Shown piece by piece: positions 15,415 to 24,922 of a stretch of 25,000 nucleotides of DNA. The notes beneath the pieces are model-generated. The model had not been told where the DNA came from, did not search any database, and saw only the letters and a list, made by a program, of their open reading frames with translations. The translations under genes were made by a program, and so were the position numbers. Numbering within the stretch: the first letter of the stretch is position 1; each line of letters begins with the position of its first letter. The stretch lies in IMG/VR virus record IMGVR_UViG_3300017733_000044, positions 1-25,000 of that record; one strand, 5' to 3'. The DNA comes from a virus.

Positions 15415-15828
15415 TTATTTAATTGTTAATCGCTTTGGTGCTCTATCTTTAGCATATGGAATAGTAATGGTTAATAATCCTTTATCCATTGTAGCATTTG
15501 CTTTTGTTAAATCTAATTCTTTAGATATTTTCCAAGCAAAGTCAAAAGCCCGTTTAGCAATTCCTTTGTGAATAAATTCACGCTTTGTTTCTATTTCTTT
15601 ATCATATCGAATTCTTAACGTCTCTCCTTCAGTTAAAATTTCAATATCTGCTTTATCTTTTCCTACTGCAGCAATTTCAAACTGTATTCCATTATCGGTT
15701 GAAAATATATCAACTGGATAATTCATTTTATTTGATGTTACTGGTAAAAATTTAGATGTTTGATCGAAAAAGTTTTTCCAAACTAAGTCGAAATCATTGA
15801 GTAATAATGTTTCTTTAAAATGTGTCAT
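15415..15828 (-). CDS. Small heat-shock protein Hsp20/alpha-crystallin family
   Basis: An ATP-independent holdase chaperone of 137 aa. The alpha-crystallin domain spans about residues 38-130: MNYPVDIFSTDNGIQFEIAA, then VGKDKADIEILTEGETLRIR, REFIHKGIAKRAFDFAWKIS, and NATMDKGLLTITIPYAK with the conserved GLLTI/IP beta-9 region. The C-terminal I-x-I-like tail is replaced by RLTIK. Similar Hsp20 genes are widespread in T4-like cyanophages and other marine myoviruses, where they are thought to help virion protein folding. The gene has a textbook AGGAGG Shine-Dalgarno site seven bases before the ATG, unlike its neighbours, and a 71-bp leader gap. Confidence 0.92.
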   Translation of the reverse strand: MTHFKETLLLNDFDLVWKNFFDQTSKFLPVTSNKMNYPVDIFSTDNGIQFEIAAVGKDKADIEILTEGETLRIRYDKEIETKREFIHKGIAKRAFDFAWKISKELDLTKANATMDKGLLTITIPYAKDRAPKRLTIK

Positions 15829-17766: not shown

Positions 17767-18378
17767 TTATTTATAAAAAGTATATGTTGCATATCTTGTA
17801 TTTTCATACTTATTTGGAAATATTTCATTTGCTTCACAATGTGAATGAATTATAAATAGATTAGCATATCCAGATACATACTTATATTCTGGTGTTAATA
17901 TAATAGAATTATGACCTGGTGATGTTTTCCATGTTTTTAAAAATCCTTTTGCTATTTCAAGATCAGAAGCTAATGCAAATTCATTTAAATCAATTCGATA
18001 TGCAGTAAAATAACTACCAGCAACTATTTCTGCTTTTGCTTTGTGGTATCTATCCCATGGTTCTTTACCACGATAAAATTTATTTCTTCTATTATACTCA
18101 TCATGATCAATTTTACTGTTATTTTCAAACATGTATTTGTTATGAGTTTCACACGCAGAGTTGCCTTTTGGATCAATAATTAATTTAGATAACCCATTTT
18201 CTCTACGATATTCATTAATTAAATTAAATAAAATATTAGTAATGTTTTTAGATCTAGAATATAAACTATCGCTATCAGCATAATCAATACCAACAAGTTT
18301 ATAATTATGATAAGGATTTTTTTGAGAATAACATGTAATGCAAGTAAATATAAATATCAAATAAATTATTTTTTTCAT
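17767..18378 (-). CDS. Secreted CAP-domain (SCP/PR-1, YkwD-like) protein (203 aa)
   Basis: Residues 1-18 are a signal peptide (KKIIYLIFIFTCITCYSQ), of the flavobacterial type ending near CYSQ. The rest fits a CAP domain: NLINEYRRENGLSKLIIDPK, a helix with H79, H92 in KIDHDEYNRR, E117 in AEIVAG, and the signature FLKTWKTSPGHNSIIL with H156. H92, E117 and H156 would line the CAP cavity. CAP proteins are secreted proteins whose bacterial members are linked to cell-wall or envelope functions. A phage copy would be exported to the periplasm or cell surface. It stands alone, with A/T-rich gaps of about 55 bp on both sides. Confidence 0.8.
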   Translation of the reverse strand: MKKIIYLIFIFTCITCYSQKNPYHNYKLVGIDYADSDSLYSRSKNITNILFNLINEYRRENGLSKLIIDPKGNSACETHNKYMFENNSKIDHDEYNRRNKFYRGKEPWDRYHKAKAEIVAGSYFTAYRIDLNEFALASDLEIAKGFLKTWKTSPGHNSIILTPEYKYVSGYANLFIIHSHCEANEIFPNKYENTRYATYTFYK

Positions 18379-18433: not shown

Positions 18434-19579
18434 TTACATTCTTCCCATTGGAGTTTTAATACCAGGATTCAATCTACTTTTTTTGCCAGTTTTTTTAGTA
18501 AATCTAGGACACGATACTGAAGCTGTTGTTGAAAATAATCCATTTCCTCGTAATCCTAAGCCTTTACAAAACATAAAGCATTTTTTCTTTCGTCTTCCAC
18601 CATCATAGGAAACTCTTTTAATGACTTTAAACATCCATTCATATAACTCACCTGAATCAATTTTTGGTTTTCCTGACTCAATTTTATTTACTGTATAACT
18701 AACACTTAATGCAACTTGACCGCTAGCAAATCTATATCTTGAATATTCATTTTGATATGCTTTTGTTCTAGCGCCTGGTTTACCATATTTTTTAGTATCG
18801 TTTCTTTGCTTTTCGCCCCATTCTGGACCTTGATTTGGTTTTTCGGTGATAACATAATTCTTCCCACCTGCTTGTATGCAATCATCAATACCTACAACGC
18901 CATTTGCCTTTAAGGCTTCAATAAACGCTGTTTGCATTGCTGCTACACGATCTTTACATAATGGAATATTATTGTCTGCAGAATAAGTTGTACTATTATA
19001 CTTACTTCTAACCTGACTAGTACCTGCTGCAAAATTTAAAACTCTAGGAGCAATTTCTATATCATATGCATTTTCCTCTAATGAAGCTCGAGCTTTTTCA
19101 ACTTGCTGTTTCACCATTCGATTAATTAAACCAATTGCGTCTGAAGTTAATGTAGCTGAATCATCTGGAAATAACTTTACTTGTCCATTACCCATTCCTA
19201 ATTGTATAGGTCCTATTTCAGTTTCTGTTATAACAGGTTCTGGTTTTGGAGTTTCAATTTTAAAAGTGCCTTTTCTAGCTATACGTACCGCTATATAGCG
19301 TTTTTTGCTATCTAAATCATTTTTTATTTCTGGTGGTAAAGCTGCTATATATGCATTAAAATCATCAAAAAATGACATTAATTCTTGATCGCTTAATTTT
19401 CGTAATGTATTAATCCTACTAGGATTATTTTTTGAACCTTGTTTACCCGCATATTTTAACATATAATTATACGCATCTCCATAATTGATATCAGGCTTGG
19501 TTTTTGGTAATGACTTGTACCATTTAATACTATCTGACGATTGCTCGTTTAAGTTTAATAAGTCTTTTAATTTAATCAT
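18434..19579 (-). CDS. MIKLK-leader protein 7, large internal head protein candidate (381 aa)
   Basis: Begins MIKLKDLLNLNEQ, the shared leader, with likely processing after LNE. The body is helical up to about residue 105, has a Pro-rich hinge (ETPKPEPVITETE), then an alpha/beta domain at about 120-300. The stretch NIPLCKDRVAAMQTAFIEAL, with FAAGTSQVRSKYNS before it and FASGQVALSVSY after it, faintly recalls OmpA-C domains, but I would not rely on it. The last 50 residues are very basic with cysteines (RRKKKCFMFCKGLGLRGNG) and may bind DNA. It overlaps the Lys-rich protein gene by 8 bp. Confidence 0.7.
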   Translation of the reverse strand: MIKLKDLLNLNEQSSDSIKWYKSLPKTKPDINYGDAYNYMLKYAGKQGSKNNPSRINTLRKLSDQELMSFFDDFNAYIAALPPEIKNDLDSKKRYIAVRIARKGTFKIETPKPEPVITETEIGPIQLGMGNGQVKLFPDDSATLTSDAIGLINRMVKQQVEKARASLEENAYDIEIAPRVLNFAAGTSQVRSKYNSTTYSADNNIPLCKDRVAAMQTAFIEALKANGVVGIDDCIQAGGKNYVITEKPNQGPEWGEKQRNDTKKYGKPGARTKAYQNEYSRYRFASGQVALSVSYTVNKIESGKPKIDSGELYEWMFKVIKRVSYDGGRRKKKCFMFCKGLGLRGNGLFSTTASVSCPRFTKKTGKKSRLNPGIKTPMGRM

Positions 19580-20294
19580 TGTTATCCTTGATGATATTTG
19601 CCAATCTATTTTGCGATTTATAATAAATATAAGAACGATATACTTGTTTAGGTGTTAAACCAAAGTTATGAGATAGGTTATCAAGTATATCTGCAACCAA
19701 TTGCTCTCTTTCACGCACATTATGAAGCTTAGATCCTAATATTTGTATAATTTTTTCTAGATAAGTGACATATCCCTTAGGTAATCGCTTTAATGTTCTC
19801 GATTTACTGGTATGTACCTTATTTTTTTTCTTTTTTTTTGACTTTTTTGACTTTTTTGCTTCTGATATCAATAAATTTGCTAAATCTTTCGAAGATTCCA
19901 CGGATTCTTCAGTTGCAACCGGTGGTTCTTCTCCTTCAGGAGCATCTCCAGAGCTAAGTCCTTCAAGATCTTCAATTGAAATGTTTAATTTTAATGTATA
20001 ATCTTCATTTCTTGCATACCCACCATATGGTACTATTGAAATAGTACCTTGTTTTAGCAAACTATGCAATATATTTGGTGTTAAATTGAAGTCTTTACCA
20101 CTTCTGTTAAGAAATTCACGAACTCCAGTAGCATCCTTTGCATATAATATACCTATACTGTTGGTTTTTAATTCAAAAAACTTGGCTAAGAACTTTTCTT
20201 CTTCAGGAGAAAATGGAGAAACTTCAATATCTTGTTCAGATAATGTTTTTTCTATATATTCACATATAATATTTCTTAACTCTTGCTCGTTCAT
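19572..20294 (-). CDS. Lys-rich linker protein with two helical domains (240 aa)
   Basis: The N-terminus is a helix (MNEQELRNIICEYIEKTLSE) whose LSE at residues 18-20 resembles a prohead-protease site, but it lacks MIKLK. A domain at about 25-110 (FSPEEEKFLAKFFELKTNSI, TGVREFLNRSGKDFNLTPN) is followed by an acidic linker (EGEEPPVATEESVESSKDLA), a polylysine patch (KKSKKSKKKKKNK) and a C-terminal helical domain (YLEKIIQILGSKLHNVRERE). It is coupled at both ends: ATGA with the H1-like gene, and an 8-bp overlap with MIKLK protein 7. It may be a second internal or core protein type. No family recognised. Confidence 0.6.
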   Translation of the reverse strand: MNEQELRNIICEYIEKTLSEQDIEVSPFSPEEEKFLAKFFELKTNSIGILYAKDATGVREFLNRSGKDFNLTPNILHSLLKQGTISIVPYGGYARNEDYTLKLNISIEDLEGLSSGDAPEGEEPPVATEESVESSKDLANLLISEAKKSKKSKKKKKNKVHTSKSRTLKRLPKGYVTYLEKIIQILGSKLHNVREREQLVADILDNLSHNFGLTPKQVYRSYIYYKSQNRLANIIKDNND

Positions 20295-20476
20295 ATTTCT
20301 TTTGATTCAGCTAAACATGTACTTCTATATTTTGTAGCTAATTTTTTTATTTCATTGATTGCTTTTCTAGCTCTTACACCAGCTGCTTTAACTTTTTTTT
20401 CATTAAATCTTTCATGATTTTCTAGAAATGTTTCCCAATATTGTTTCATTTCTTCACAAATTTCATACGATGTCAT
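20291..20476 (-). CDS. Histone H1-like (Hc1-type) protein (61 aa)
   Basis: The core KKVKAAGVRARKAINEIKKL followed by ATKYRSTCLAESK matches the bacterial histone-H1-like Hc1 pattern of Bacteroidetes ('NKAAGxRARKxxxEIxKLxKxFR'). The N-terminal helix (MTSYEICEEMKQYWETFLEN) is acidic and amphipathic. Hc1-type proteins bind DNA and compact the nucleoid. Similar short proteins occur in phages of Bacteroidetes, so the gene supports that host. It sits inside the MIKLK-leader cluster, so the virion could carry it, but it has no leader itself. A ribosome binding site (AAAGGAAAAC) precedes the ATG. Confidence 0.75.
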   Translation of the reverse strand: MTSYEICEEMKQYWETFLENHERFNEKKVKAAGVRARKAINEIKKLATKYRSTCLAESKEI

Positions 20477-20496
20477 GTTTTCCTTTATATTGATAT

Positions 20497-20664
20497 TTAC
20501 TTGTTAAGATTTTTTGTTTTAAATCTTACCATTGCATTTGTAAAATCTATTTTTTTATTTTTTTGAGTATCTTCAAATTCAGTTAATGGTTTATCCATTG
20601 TTTTAGACCAACGCTTAGGTTGATTTTTAAATGATCTATCTGTCCATTCATTTATTTTACTCAT
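20497..20664 (-). CDS. Small basic unknown protein (55 aa)
   Basis: ATG at 20664 follows AAAAGGATTTCAA and an ATATTTAT box. The protein reads MSKINEWTDRSFKNQPKRWS, then KTMDKPLTEFEDTQKNKKID and ends KTKNLNK. It is hydrophilic, basic and mostly disordered-looking, with no cysteines. It sits between MIKLK protein 6 and the H1-like gene. It is too small to classify, but composition and ribosome site make it credible. Confidence 0.6.
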   Translation of the reverse strand: MSKINEWTDRSFKNQPKRWSKTMDKPLTEFEDTQKNKKIDFTNAMVRFKTKNLNK

Positions 20665-20679
20665 TTGAAATCCTTTTAT

Positions 20680-20687
20680 ATAAATAT
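20680..20687 (-). promoter_or_regulatory. ATATTTAT box, candidate late promoter or initiation element
   Basis: Coding strand ATATTTAT, 15 bases before the ATG of the 55-aa gene, with AAAAGGA between. It directly follows the stop of MIKLK protein 6. Confidence 0.35.
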
Positions 20688-20963
20688 CTACATATAACGT
20701 TTAATAGGATATTCTGTAACTGTTTGGTCATTAGGAAAAAATAAATTAGGTCCACCAGGTATTCCTATTTTCTTTTGTCCGCTTTGATCTCCTATAATTA
20801 ATAATATATGTTGAATAGGCTTTCCTGTCCTAGGATCAGGTTGCATTGTTATTTGATTGCTTGGTATTCTTGTTATTCTACCAGGATATTCCCACTGTCC
20901 AAGATGCGATTCAATTATTTCTTGATTTGGAATGCTTTTTAATATAGATTCTAATTTTATCAT
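20688..20963 (-). CDS. MIKLK-leader protein 6 (91 aa), start at internal Met
   Basis: The open frame extends six codons further to 20981, but the ATG at 20963 overlaps the preceding stop as ATGA and restores the leader MIKLESILKSIPNQE, so I choose it. The body is small and beta-rich: IESHLGQWEYPGRITRIPSN, then QPIQHILLIIGDQSGQKKIG and a VTEYPIKRYM end. No family recognised. The leader is the most diverged of the seven (E for D at position 5), and the expected E cut is at residue 15. Likely a small internal virion protein. Confidence 0.7.
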   Translation of the reverse strand: MIKLESILKSIPNQEIIESHLGQWEYPGRITRIPSNQITMQPDPRTGKPIQHILLIIGDQSGQKKIGIPGGPNLFFPNDQTVTEYPIKRYM

Positions 20964-21613
20964 GCTTTTACTCGTAACCATCGTATTGGCGAATTTGTAT
21001 TAGAACATATTTGTTTTTCTAAATATACATCATTTGATAAACCTTCTTCTGCAGGTTTACATTTAAAAATCTTTTTTGAGAATTTATTTAATATTCTATT
21101 TAATCCAGGTGCACTAACACCAGCTGCTCCATATACTGTAACTCCTAATGTATTAGCAGCATGAACCAAAATATTAAGTTGATCTGCACCATAACATGCA
21201 GTAAAAAATACATTAGTAGAAGAGTTAATTAAATCTTTACATGCTATTAATAAAGCTTCATCATAATTATGCCATTTTTTTGATCCATCTTCATATTCAA
21301 AATCTCTACCAATAGTTTGATCTTTGGCAGCTGAACCTACTAATTTTGTACCTGTTTTTGTCCCATGGGAACCAATAACCAATTCTTCTAAATTAGAAAC
21401 TCCTTGATCTCGTAATTCTATAACATATTTAATTGCATCTGCTATAGAGGTAAACGTTTTTGTAACAAGTCCTAATCGTACAAATAATCCAGATAATGCT
21501 TTTTCAATTTTTGTATCATTTGCAAAAACAATACGAAGCTTTTTAATTTTTGTAGGATCTTCTGTTTGTACTATCTGATCTTTTTCTAATAATATGTCTT
21601 TGAGTTTAATCAT
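20960..21613 (-). CDS. MIKLK-leader protein 5, candidate His-Cys (clan CD-like) peptidase (217 aa)
   Basis: Leader MIKLKDILLE, with likely processing after E10. The rest looks like an alpha/beta caspase-type fold: a strand then His in LEELVIGSHGTKTG (H83), and a strand then Cys in NVFFTACYGADQLNILVHAA (C140), followed by TLGVTVYGAAGVSAPG. This 'strand-(S/G)HG ... strand-xxCxGA' pair is how caspases, CHAT and DUF4347-type proteins arrange their catalytic dyad. The spacing of 57 residues is plausible. The family is not certain; a non-enzymatic relative is possible. Its stop overlaps the start of protein 6. If packed in the head it would enter the host cytoplasm as an early effector. Confidence 0.65.
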   Translation of the reverse strand: MIKLKDILLEKDQIVQTEDPTKIKKLRIVFANDTKIEKALSGLFVRLGLVTKTFTSIADAIKYVIELRDQGVSNLEELVIGSHGTKTGTKLVGSAAKDQTIGRDFEYEDGSKKWHNYDEALLIACKDLINSSTNVFFTACYGADQLNILVHAANTLGVTVYGAAGVSAPGLNRILNKFSKKIFKCKPAEEGLSNDVYLEKQICSNTNSPIRWLRVKA

Positions 21614-21981
21614 TTTTTTGTTCTAGAATAAGCTTTACTTCTTTTTTTCCTAGCTGCTTTAGTATCTTTCTTTTTTCTGCCTTCGCCCCAATTTGCTGCA
21701 CCTACTTGTCTACATTTGGATAATGCTAAAGATGCATATGCACTAGGCCATACTTTATAACGTCCTTTAACTTTGTAATAACATTTATCACGTTTTGCTT
21801 TTTTCTTTTTCTTTTTTTCAGCTAATTCGACTTCGTCTACTTTATCAGGAAGATTTTCATAATCATTTTTAGTCATTTTACTAGCTAATTTTTCTGCTGC
21901 TTCTTTATCAGTTGCAAACATATAACCTTGTTGAGCTTTTGACGCAAATTTTTCTGATAATAAATCTTTTAACTTAATCAT
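21610..21981 (-). CDS. MIKLK-leader protein 4, basic protein with WPSAYAS motif (123 aa)
   Basis: Leader MIKLKDLLSE, with likely processing after E10. Next comes a short helical segment (TDKEAAEKLASKMTKNDYEN), a lysine run (EKKKKKKAKRDK), then CYYKVKGRYKVWPSAYASLA with LSKCRQVGAANWG. The 'YKVWPSAYAS...CR' block with C67 and C90 recurs in cyanophage, marine phage and giant-virus proteins of unknown function. The tail is Lys/Arg-rich (RKKKDTKAARKKRSKAYSRT). The basic charge suggests DNA binding in the capsid. The start and stop overlap both neighbours. Confidence 0.75.
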   Translation of the reverse strand: MIKLKDLLSEKFASKAQQGYMFATDKEAAEKLASKMTKNDYENLPDKVDEVELAEKKKKKKAKRDKCYYKVKGRYKVWPSAYASLALSKCRQVGAANWGEGRKKKDTKAARKKRSKAYSRTKK

Positions 21982-22411
21982 GACTTTTTTTCTTTTTACG
22001 AGATGTAGCTACATTTTTAGCTTTACCTTTTCTATCTGGATTTGGGTCTTCTCTTCTCTTTCTTCTAGCTGCTGATGCTCTTTTCTTTTTACCCATTGCT
22101 CTTGCTTTAGCTAATGGTAAACACTTAGGTTTGCCTTCTCCTTTTTTCTTTCCGCCGCAAGATCCTCTAATTTTACCATCAGGTCCCATTCTAACCCATT
22201 TTTGTTTCAACCACTTTCTTAAATCTTCCCCTAATTCATCCTCATACATAATCATATCTTCTGGATCTGAAAATCCTTCGTCTGGTAACTTAGCTTCACG
22301 TTTAACACAGTTTGGAACACGTTTTCCAAACATTGTTTTCATTCCTTTCTTCTTATATCCTTTCCAACACCGAGTACCTTCATACATTAATATGTCTTTG
22401 AGCTTGATCAT
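21974..22411 (-). CDS. MIKLK-leader protein 3, very basic Cys-containing protein (145 aa)
   Basis: Leader MIKLKDILMYEG, with a possible cut after E11. A first Cys block is CWKGYKKKGMKTMFGKRVPN with C15 and C35. After an acidic spacer (DPEDMIMYEDELGED) comes RKWLKQKWVRMGPDGKIRGS and a second Cys pair (C85, C97), then KARAMGKKKRASAARRKRRE. The 'KWVRxxxxGxIxGxCG...CLPxxKAxxM' part resembles DUF5872-like small proteins of large phages and giant viruses. It ends in a Lys/Arg tail. It is probably a DNA-binding internal protein related in kind to protein 4, which it overlaps by 8 bp. Confidence 0.75.
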   Translation of the reverse strand: MIKLKDILMYEGTRCWKGYKKKGMKTMFGKRVPNCVKREAKLPDEGFSDPEDMIMYEDELGEDLRKWLKQKWVRMGPDGKIRGSCGGKKKGEGKPKCLPLAKARAMGKKKRASAARRKRREDPNPDRKGKAKNVATSRKKKKSHD

Positions 22412-22416
22412 TTTAT

Positions 22417-22424
22417 ATAAATAT
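22417..22424 (-). promoter_or_regulatory. ATATTTAT box close to start
   Basis: Coding strand ATATTTAT, only 5 bases before the ATG of MIKLK protein 3, between the zinc-ribbon stop and that start. As a promoter it would give a leaderless message, so an initiation-region role is as likely. Confidence 0.25.
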
Positions 22425-22428
22425 TACA

Positions 22429-22569
22429 TTATAATGAATTACCAGTTATATCTTCATGTTTACATTTGGGACATGTATTCTTAACAAAATATCCTTTTGT
22501 ATACCATTTATTTTTGCACTTTCCGCACAGTATGTATGTAAGGATAGTTTTCATTCTCTTATGTTTCAT
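22429..22569 (-). CDS. Zinc-ribbon mini-protein (46 aa)
   Basis: From ATG 22569 the protein reads MKHKRMKTILTYILCGKCKN and later VKNTCPKCKHEDITGNSL. The CGKC (C15/C18) and CPKC (C33/C36) knuckles are 15 residues apart and form a rubredoxin-like zinc ribbon. It lies in the 181-bp gap between MIKLK proteins 2 and 3, on the same strand. Met6 is an alternative start. Role unknown; such ribbons often bind nucleic acid or a polymerase. Confidence 0.7.
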   Translation of the reverse strand: MKHKRMKTILTYILCGKCKNKWYTKGYFVKNTCPKCKHEDITGNSL

Positions 22570-22592
22570 GGTGATATGTTCCTAGATTAGTT

Positions 22593-23108
22593 TTATCGTT
22601 TAAATCCTGCAGGAGAAATTTCAGGAAATATTTGTATGATAAAACCACGTATGAATTCTAATTGTCCTAGTAACTGTTCCATTATAGCGACAGCATTTTC
22701 TATCATGCCGGAGTTGATACTCGAATCAATTTGATTGTCGTACCAAAGTAATTGTTCAAATTCAATTGAATCATCAGCATCCATTTCTGAATTAACATAA
22801 CTAAATAATTTTTCCGCAACATCATCGTCGCTTATTTGTCTTGTATGTAATTCATCTTGAATGTCGATTGCTACTTTCTCCATTTCATTTAATATTTGAG
22901 ATGCTTTTTCTTTTACTTCATCAGGTGCATCTGATCTCATTATTTGCTCAGCATAACCTGAAATAGCAGTTTTAGTACTACCAGCTTCAAAATTATTGAA
23001 AAATTTAGCAAATTCCTGACGTGTCTTACGACCAATATTTTGTTGTTTAGGAGTTCCTGGAACTTGGAATCCTATTTGTTCTATTAATATGTCTTTGAGT
23101 TTAATCAA
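22593..23108 (-). CDS. MIKLK-leader protein 2 (171 aa), TTG start
   Basis: The start is TTG at 23108, in TTGA overlap with the preceding stop; the coding sequence that follows is nearly identical to that of the other leaders (IKLKDILIEQ). Likely processing is after E10. The body is helical and acidic: RKTRQEFAKFFNNFEAGSTK, MRSDAPDEVKEKASQILNEM, then ISDDDVAEKLFSYVNSEMDA, ending with hydrophobic helices (AVAIMEQLLGQLEFIRGFII). No family recognised. It is probably a structural internal protein rather than an enzyme. Confidence 0.7.
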   Translation of the reverse strand: MIKLKDILIEQIGFQVPGTPKQQNIGRKTRQEFAKFFNNFEAGSTKTAISGYAEQIMRSDAPDEVKEKASQILNEMEKVAIDIQDELHTRQISDDDVAEKLFSYVNSEMDADDSIEFEQLLWYDNQIDSSINSGMIENAVAIMEQLLGQLEFIRGFIIQIFPEISPAGFKR

Positions 23109-23248
23109 ATTTCAATACCAAAGTTTAATATCATTATTTTTAATTTAGGCGAAGTTACTATTTCTAATATAGTTAATGTACCTATTCTAATATTAATTTC
23201 AAATACACTTTTTTTATTATATGCTTTCCAACTATTTATCCAATTCAT
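23105..23248 (-). CDS. Small unknown protein (47 aa) bridging two MIKLK genes
   Basis: ATG at 23248 overlaps the stop of MIKLK protein 1 (ATGA), and the stop at 23105 overlaps the TTG start of MIKLK protein 2 (TTGA). The protein reads MNWINSWKAYNKKSVFEINI, then RIGTLTILEIVTSPKLKIMI and LNFGIEI, a small beta-rich sequence. Perfect coupling on both sides argues for a translated gene, or at least for a coupling frame. Composition is ordinary. Function unknown. Confidence 0.55.
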   Translation of the reverse strand: MNWINSWKAYNKKSVFEINIRIGTLTILEIVTSPKLKIMILNFGIEI

Positions 23249-23793
23249 TCTGAGGTTCCCCATTGTTTTAACATATCCATTTTTGCATCATTGGCATCTT
23301 TTTGATCCTGTGTGAATCTTTCATCATCAACTTTTACTTTTTCCCAATGTTCTTCTGCATCTGGATCTAATATTACTTTGACATTACCAAAACGTCTTTT
23401 AGTTTTTTCTTTCCAATTTTCCAATGACTTCATATCAGCAACAATTGAAGATGCATCAGAAGGATTTGGAAAACTTAATCCATCTCTATAATATGGACCT
23501 TCTTTACCGTCTGGTTGCATTCTATTAAAATGTACATCATTATAATAATCTTTAGTTCTAAATAATTTTACAAGATCATCAAATTTCAATTGATCTAATG
23601 ATAGTTCTTTATAATTTAAATTAATATTACCGCCAGCTCCTCCAGGCATAGGATTTCCAGTTAATGGATCTCTATTTAATCCTTGAGCTAAATCTGTCGC
23701 AGACGCGTCAGGTAATTGTTGTTCTTTAACCTTGCCAGCTCCTAATCCAAAGCCTAGGTATTTTTCAGATAGTAATGATTTTAGTTTGATCAT
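23245..23793 (-). CDS. MIKLK-leader protein 1 (182 aa)
   Basis: First member of the leader set, MIKLKSLLSEKYLG, with likely processing after E10. A Gly/Pro-rich segment at about 35-58 (DPLTGNPMPGGAGGNINL) precedes an acidic alpha/beta part: ELSLDQLKFDDLVKLFRTKD, DVHFNRMQPDGKEGPYYRDG, then ENWKEKTKRRFGNVKVILDP. It ends DAKMDMLKQWGTSE. No family recognised and no catalytic motif seen. It follows an ATATTTAT box and an 8-bp tandem repeat, so it may lead the cargo operon. Confidence 0.7.
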   Translation of the reverse strand: MIKLKSLLSEKYLGFGLGAGKVKEQQLPDASATDLAQGLNRDPLTGNPMPGGAGGNINLNYKELSLDQLKFDDLVKLFRTKDYYNDVHFNRMQPDGKEGPYYRDGLSFPNPSDASSIVADMKSLENWKEKTKRRFGNVKVILDPDAEEHWEKVKVDDERFTQDQKDANDAKMDMLKQWGTSE

Positions 23794-24353: not shown

Positions 24354-24572
24354 TTATTTAGTGGGATATGAGGTATATGATGCGTGGCCTTTAACCAGAC
24401 GTACCCGTTTAAGAGTGGCCTTGTCATGATATGAACTTCTAGGGGTAGTATGGGTAATTTTGTGTTCTATGTGACTTTGCCAGGCGCTCTGCTTTTGTGG
24501 AAACTTCTTGGTGCTACACGATAAAGTGATTCCGTATAAACACAGAATCGAGATTAGGATGGGGGTTTTCAT
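24354..24572 (-). CDS. Small lipoprotein (72 aa)
   Basis: Signal sequence MKTPILISILCLYGITLSCS has a hydrophobic core and a lipobox-like TLSC, with C19 as the lipidation site. The mature part is short, hydrophilic and basic (STKKFPQKQSAWQSHIEHKI, then KATLKRVRLVKGHASYTSYP). It might be an outer spanin or surface-exclusion lipoprotein, but it lacks the Pro-rich stretch of many Rz1 proteins. It opens a cassette with two membrane proteins. Base composition is richer in G+C than the phage late genes further left. Confidence 0.6.
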   Translation of the reverse strand: MKTPILISILCLYGITLSCSTKKFPQKQSAWQSHIEHKITHTTPRSSYHDKATLKRVRLVKGHASYTSYPTK

Positions 24573-24687
24573 ATATTATTAAATATAATATGTACTAGAA
24601 TGTATATACACTGTATATCTAATAAAGAGCACCTATATAGCAAAAAATCTATGCTCACAATAAAATTTGATATATCAGCACCTTCTA

Positions 24688-24812
24688 GGAGCGGAGGGAG
24701 GGGGGCGTTAATGAAACCCACCCCTACCCCCCCTTTTAACCCCTTTAACCCCCTATTTGCCCCACCCTCCCCCTTGTTCTACCCCATACCCCTTTGTTAT
24801 ACCCCTATACCC
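24688..24812. other. G-run block followed by twelve C runs (G-quadruplex/i-motif candidate)
   Basis: On the + strand, 24688-24705 is purine-only apart from one C, with runs GG, GG, GGG and GGGGGG. From 24717 to 24812 there are twelve runs of three to seven C. The minus strand, which is the transcribed-sense strand here, therefore carries twelve closely spaced G runs. The surrounding genome is about 70% A+T by eye, so this is a sharp anomaly. It could form G-quadruplexes in DNA or in the lipoprotein-operon leader RNA, or mark an origin or packaging signal. Confidence 0.7.
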
Positions 24813-24825
24813 TTAGAACGTAGAA

Positions 24826-24862
24826 TAGACCCGGGGTCTTATTAAAAGGAGTCCCGAGTCTA
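24826..24862 (-). terminator. RNA hairpin, 10-bp stem, possible terminator of the right-hand gene
   Basis: The minus-strand RNA reads UAGACUCGGG, a 17-base loop, then CCCGGGUCUA. All ten pairs form in this RNA, one as G-U; on the other strand the same position is a C-A mismatch, which hints that the RNA of the minus strand is the functional form. It lies about 60 bases after the stop codon of the right-hand gene. Only a weak U-run (UUCU) follows, so it may be a leader or stability element instead. Confidence 0.45.
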
Positions 24863-24922
24863 TCCTTGCCCTTGCTCATGACTTATATATAATATAGTCC
24901 AGGCGTCTTGTTATAATATGTG

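Follow-up and report, generated by a model that had tools for sequence, protein, structure and literature searches.

The run-rich block at positions 24688–24812 is the variable right-hand part of a larger noncoding element that extends over about 24600–24870 (roughly 200–270 bp) of the window, the 25,000-nucleotide stretch of IMG/VR record IMGVR_UViG_3300017733_000044 analyzed here. It most probably acts in cis, as noncoding DNA, and large uncultured T4-like phages of one clade carry a single copy per genome. The best single reading of its function, which we put forward tentatively, is that of a replication origin; a transcription boundary, a structured RNA and a packaging or terminus site follow in that order.

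The block holds 12 runs of at least three cytosines within 125 nt (CCC, CCCC, CCCCCCC, CCCC, CCCCC, CCCC, CCC, CCCCC, CCCC, CCCC, CCCC and CCC; lengths 3–7) with a G-run block adjoining, as described in the original prediction. Nine of the 17 C runs of four or more in the window fall in this segment. The maximum number of C or G runs (at least 3 long) per 125 nt is 13 in the window, compared with no more than 6 (mean 3.9) in 300 simulated sequences having the same dinucleotide make-up, and in four relatives of ~160–173 kb the element is the sole cluster of at least three G/C runs of length four or more in the genome. The block is located in an intergenic gap running from 24573 to about 24922. 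The genes on both sides of the gap are all on the minus strand, which is called the sense strand in what follows based on their orientation. The coordinates first assigned to the feature describe the right-hand part of the element correctly, but omit its most conserved half (24600–24716) and a hairpin at 24822–24866.

Read from left to right, the element starts with a hairpin-forming inverted repeat (P1) and the motif AATAAAGAGCACCTATATAGCAAA. Next come an AT-rich stretch and then TTAAYGAAACCC with a C block after it; a variable tract of C and G runs and a strong hairpin complete the element. The features in and next to the element are as follows:

24580–24587, minus (sense) strand: late-promoter-like motif TATATTTA, close before the start of the first late gene, whose ATG is at 24572.
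24604–24618, no strand assigned: P1 inverted repeat ATATAC-ACT-GTATAT, from covariation among 34 copies.
24621–24644, plus strand: near-invariant core AATAAAGAGCACCTATATAGCAAA, single-copy in 25 virus records.
24627–24660, no strand assigned: weak putative stem P2, GAGCA (24627–24631) with TGCTC around a TATATAGC loop, from comparison of copies.
24645–24682, plus strand: AT-rich stretch (AAAAACATATATAACC in relatives), from alignment A2.
24687–24705, plus strand: G-run block, with GGAGGGAGGGGGG at 24693–24705, from aligned copies.
24708–24733, plus strand: conserved TTAATGAAACCC and core C block CCCACCCCTACCCCCCC (sense strand GGGGGGGTAGGGGTGGGTTTCATTAA), from 33 aligned copies.
24711–24845, plus strand: proline-rich open reading frame of 44 codons, starting MKPTPTPPFNPF; judged not coding.
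24734–24812, plus strand: variable run tract, of the C class in the window and of the G class or mixed in other phages.
24822–24866, minus strand: strong hairpin with a stem of 14 bp, lying past the 3′ end of the upstream gene (DNA MFE −9.9, z −2.5).

The core 24-mer AATAAAGAGCACCTATATAGCAAA is perfect in 24 of the 25 virus records and carries one mismatch in the other. Part of this motif served as a search pattern and conservation of that part was therefore selected for; variants of AATAAAGAGCACCTATATAGCAAA are seen in copies found via the neighboring AAA+ gene. Positions 24604–24682 are AT-rich across the aligned copies, with the AT-rich stretch terminating in ATATAACC in most of them. At the position of the G-run block most relatives have GGGGGT...TACCCC, a small hairpin (P3). 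All 33 aligned copies have the TTAAYGAAACCC motif and C block (24708–24733) at 86–90 nt from AATAAAGA, and the intervening sequence varies.

An initial search with an exact 24-mer from the C tract retrieved two IMG/VR contigs, and their alignment showed conservation over a longer element, which begins some 90 bases leftward. A pattern for this left conserved part matched 26 contigs; a stricter pattern matched 24 of the same contigs. Contigs were also retrieved independently, by means of the neighboring AAA+ ATPase gene (alignment A1). The element is present in nearly all of those where the AAA+ protein is at least 64% identical and the contig reaches far enough, including variants beyond the reach of the first pattern. 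A possible exception, L082 (AAA+ 64%), is a contig that stops about 1.9 kb past the AAA gene. Divergent copies occur at the same place in L083 (AAA 62% identical; nhmmer E = 8e-4) and L088 (51%; E = 0.02), and an nhmmer scan of the collected sequence produced no further matches.

Altogether, the IMG/VR scans yielded about 35 distinct copies, all in T4-like phage contigs, one per genome and in a constant position, with the conserved region of an AAA+ ATPase gene on one side and the late 'MIKLKDLL' operon on the other. Exactly one copy of AATAAAGAGCACCTATATAGCAAA is found in 25 of 25 virus records, among them contigs of 173, 169, 160 and 141 kb. The second motif (TTAATGAAACCC with the C block) is single in 9 of 10 genomes, with G004 having one extra two-mismatch match elsewhere. 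One copy per genome rules out a dispersed repeat or a multi-copy promoter. None of the cultured phages in INPHARED carries the element, and the sole GTDB match, in the Sulfurimonas MAG L036, agrees with the pattern but not with the synteny and was taken as chance. The feature is thus kept in many related phages as a single-copy noncoding element, and the doubt that it might be an assembly artefact is removed, since about 35 contigs carry it and these come from many separate metagenomes.

The run tract is C-rich in 16 copies and G-rich or mixed in the rest, with one copy cut by a contig end. It contains indels among the close relatives L002, L003, L008 and L009, and its polarity changes between L069 and L070/L071. 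The middle of the tract is in opposite polarity (G versus C runs) among the close relatives L069, L070, L071 and L012, where these segments appear as if inverted or exchanged. Nearly all copies have, on the sense strand, a core G block of three runs, GGGGGGT[A]GGGG[A/T]GGG; of four genomes scanned, G002 and G003 alone have a strict quadruplex motif at the element. Several tandem quadruplexes had been envisaged for the sense strand. The core G block supports this in part, but a long one-strand quadruplex array is not conserved because the polarity of the longer tract differs between relatives.

The reading as an origin is supported by the conserved anatomy, the single copy, the fixed place where the middle-gene region ends on one side and the late promoter lies on the other, the strand-neutral P1 and a step in silent-site AT skew at or near the element. 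In such an origin, P1 and the AT-rich core would open the helix, the G/C-run tract would keep the strands apart by forming hairpins or G-strand quadruplexes, and the element would be the place where replication proteins are loaded. Priming could involve an R-loop, as at T4 oriF; in many relatives a terminator-like hairpin lies before the G tract and counts against the sense-strand transcript as the primer. No initiator-binding repeats were found in the element. A bolder proposal, which we consider doubtful, is that the element represents a single, deeply conserved origin of a new type, supporting one-way replication in large T4-like phages with genes almost all on one strand. Its design would combine a palindrome conserved in structure, an invariant AT-rich core, a fixed spacing from the G-run block and a tract of changing polarity.

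Strand composition bears on the origin reading in two ways. Whole-sequence GC skew has a step near the element, but the step vanishes at fourfold-degenerate sites; it therefore reflects amino-acid make-up and was rejected as an origin signal. Fourfold-site AT skew, on the other hand, steps at or near the element in five large genomes, based on 20-kb windows, with the step at the element ranked among all positions and the contigs assumed to be circular. The ranks are 29/173 (G002), 1/170 (G004), 1/160 (G003), 2/160 (G026) and 3/197 (G031), and the corresponding block-permutation p-values are 0.06, 0.0002, 0.005, 0.002 and 0.002. The step is thus significant in four of the five genomes, and its position is that of the boundary between the middle and late gene classes. 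AT skew rises with distance from the element, which is the best starting point in four of the five. Combining the tests gives p of about 1e-8, which is too strong a figure: the genomes are not independent, AT skew was looked at second, after GC skew, and the step falls on the middle/late boundary. Gene class could itself cause the step, since the element marks this boundary and, in the two genomes mapped in full, nearly all genes are on one strand. At fourfold sites a step is seen for AT but not for GC, and the missing GC step, the shared gene-class boundary, the relatedness of the five genomes and the assumption of circular contigs all weigh against the origin reading.

Assignment of gene families (Pfam/PHROG) places the element between an AAA+ ATPase/sigma-factor region and the late operon. 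In G002 and G004 (~170-kb phages), the genomes mapped in full, one strand carries almost all genes, and the sense strand of intergenic DNA contains the motif ATATTTAT 17 and 20 times, respectively, versus one reverse complement in each. A late-promoter motif is found on the sense strand just beyond P1 in about 25 of 32 loci, with no late-type motif on the plus strand at that position in the loci compared, and this promoter is directed away from the element. The element itself was therefore rejected as the late-operon promoter, given the separate motif beyond P1. Inside the element, no promoter motif of the TAnnTTT type was found on either strand, and sigma-70-like matches are no more frequent than in shuffled sequences. 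The promoter motifs resemble the flavobacterial −7 box, TAnnTTTG (PMC9723704), which makes a Bacteroidetes host likely for these phages.

This gene arrangement could also be explained if the element marked an operon boundary, acting as a terminator together with an insulator or enhancer for late transcription. We regard this as a serious alternative, though an unlikely one. The distal hairpin would end middle-gene transcripts, G runs in the non-template strand would stall read-through polymerase and the conserved AT-rich core would bind a factor acting on the adjoining late promoter. The location between the last middle gene and the sense-strand late motif (about 25 of 32 loci) fits this explanation, and the AT-skew step could simply reflect gene classes. 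Most relatives have a G6..C6 hairpin in place of the distal hairpin of the window, and in many of them, including L011–L015, L021 and L023, a T7 run comes next on the sense strand. An intrinsic terminator, a GC-rich hairpin directly followed by a T run, is thus recognizable by inspection in several relatives, but no T run follows the 24822–24866 hairpin in the window, and the run is weak in several other copies. Moreover, a terminator has no need of a near-invariant 24-mer, a covarying palindrome or a fixed 87-nt spacing, and the element is single in genomes that hold many promoters.

Two questions for any functional model are (i) whether the conserved pairings belong to DNA or to RNA and (ii) whether a transcript would include them. 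P1 forms 12 distinct stems in 34 copies; 70 of 72 pairs are Watson–Crick and none is G.T, with up to four pair types at one position and a loop of 2–4 unpaired bases. The stem in each copy was taken as the best local hairpin, a choice that favors pairing, and its pairing of 0.97 compares with a mean of 0.45 and a maximum of 0.79 when the 3′ arms are shuffled. P2 differs in register and pairs between subgroups, which eliminates it as a strong helix, and its mismatches fit neither strand better. P3 scores higher when G.U is allowed on the plus strand (205.5 versus 173.0, summed), but its C-rich/G-rich make-up biases this test. Fold z-scores are about −2 on both strands (DNA parameters).

A structured RNA, either a trans-acting small phage RNA from the plus strand comprising P1, P2, P3 and the G6/C6 hairpin or a sense-strand leader, would account for the covariation of P1, the P3 scores and the fold z-scores, but we consider it improbable. 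The Rfam 15 covariance models gave chance-level matches only in the window and none to the element in seven relatives, and known RNA families were rejected on this basis. No plus-strand promoter motif was identified. The late promoter is on the far side of the element, which is therefore excluded from the late messenger, and a regulatory RNA leader, one of the roles suggested at the outset, becomes less likely. The lack of G.T pairs in P1, the strand-neutral mismatches of P2 and the different run-tract polarities of close relatives (L069 versus L070/L071) all make the element look like a DNA site rather than an RNA, and it most likely acts as DNA. The suggestion that the gap houses an origin, packaging signal or regulatory site has thus gained a conserved single-copy noncoding element at or near a step in strand composition, but has lost ground as regards RNA.

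A packaging, terminus or recombination site is quite improbable. Ten of the 26 contigs have an end no more than 3 kb from the element, where 4.6 would be expected (P = 0.005), and a physical end at this place keeps a small probability. The breaks are, however, located on both sides at scattered distances (98–2845 bp), as hard-to-sequence G/C runs would give, and probably reflect poor assembly across these runs; the G004 and G006 contigs cross the element by tens of kb. T4-type phages use headful packaging, which also counts against a packaging site.

Finally, a small proline-rich protein encoded at 24711–24845 (plus strand) can be dismissed as extremely improbable: the frame is open in the window and a purine-rich block precedes the ATG, but the frame is changed in L002 and stops early in L003, the start is ACG or ACT in most relatives, and Bacteroidetes mRNAs, relevant if the host is one, naturally lack Shine–Dalgarno sequences (PMC6847099). 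The block had been described as free of coding sequence; one plus-strand frame does cross it, but the description is right in effect because neither frame nor ATG is conserved. Just left of the G block in L002 and L003, CACCTCCTTCTAG resembles the 16S rRNA 3′ end (anti-Shine–Dalgarno), a similarity that is probably due to chance and is absent from the other copies.

We also note that the products of six neighboring genes at 18434–23793 (minus strand) begin with a common N-terminal tag, (M/L)IKLK(D/S)(I/L)L, with xE after it in most cases, and that relatives have MIRLKxLLxE at the same place. The tag resembles the capsid-targeting leaders of T4 internal proteins, which are removed by the prohead protease, and by this analogy the products of the six genes may be packaged, injected proteins. 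Genes for an Hsp20/alpha-crystallin small heat-shock protein and a CAP-domain protein (Pfam) are located at 15415–15828 and 17767–18378 (minus strand).

To our knowledge, very few large virulent phages have origins that were identified by experiment. If the element is an origin, a single feature recognizable in metagenomes would allow origin calls across the whole clade and direct testing. Even as a transcription or RNA element, it is a noncoding feature that a widespread phage group strongly conserves and that is absent from Rfam and from the cultured-phage records searched.

Comparison with known systems reveals partial likenesses. Intrinsic (Rho-independent) terminators are like the distal G6-loop-C6 and T7 of several relatives, a similarity limited to the distal edge of the element, the window hairpin being without a T run. 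The sense-strand GGGGGGT[A]GGGGAGGGTTT resembles the G tract of mitochondrial conserved sequence block II (CSB II). There is no homology between the two, and the element differs in being without a demonstrated light-strand-type promoter, in having a terminator-like hairpin before its G tract in many relatives and in the unconserved polarity of its longer tract. At CSB II, a hybrid quadruplex stabilizes the R-loop that primes replication (PMC8455175).

T4 offers a further parallel to an origin: only about 100 bp are needed for oriF or oriG, and several T4 origins are located at shifts in compositional bias (PMC3016281). Like oriF (uvsY) and oriG, the element has an AT-rich stretch suited to unwinding (24604–24682 in aligned copies); at fourfold sites, AT skew but not GC skew shifts at or near it. 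T4 oriF and oriG include a middle-mode promoter, whereas no promoter was found within the element; a distant upstream promoter might serve instead. T4 switches gene strands, whereas G002 and G004 have nearly all genes on one strand. Furthermore, the several origins of T4 have no sequence motif in common, whereas these phages have one highly conserved element per genome and, unlike the T4 origins, this element has a covarying palindrome and a G/C-run tract.
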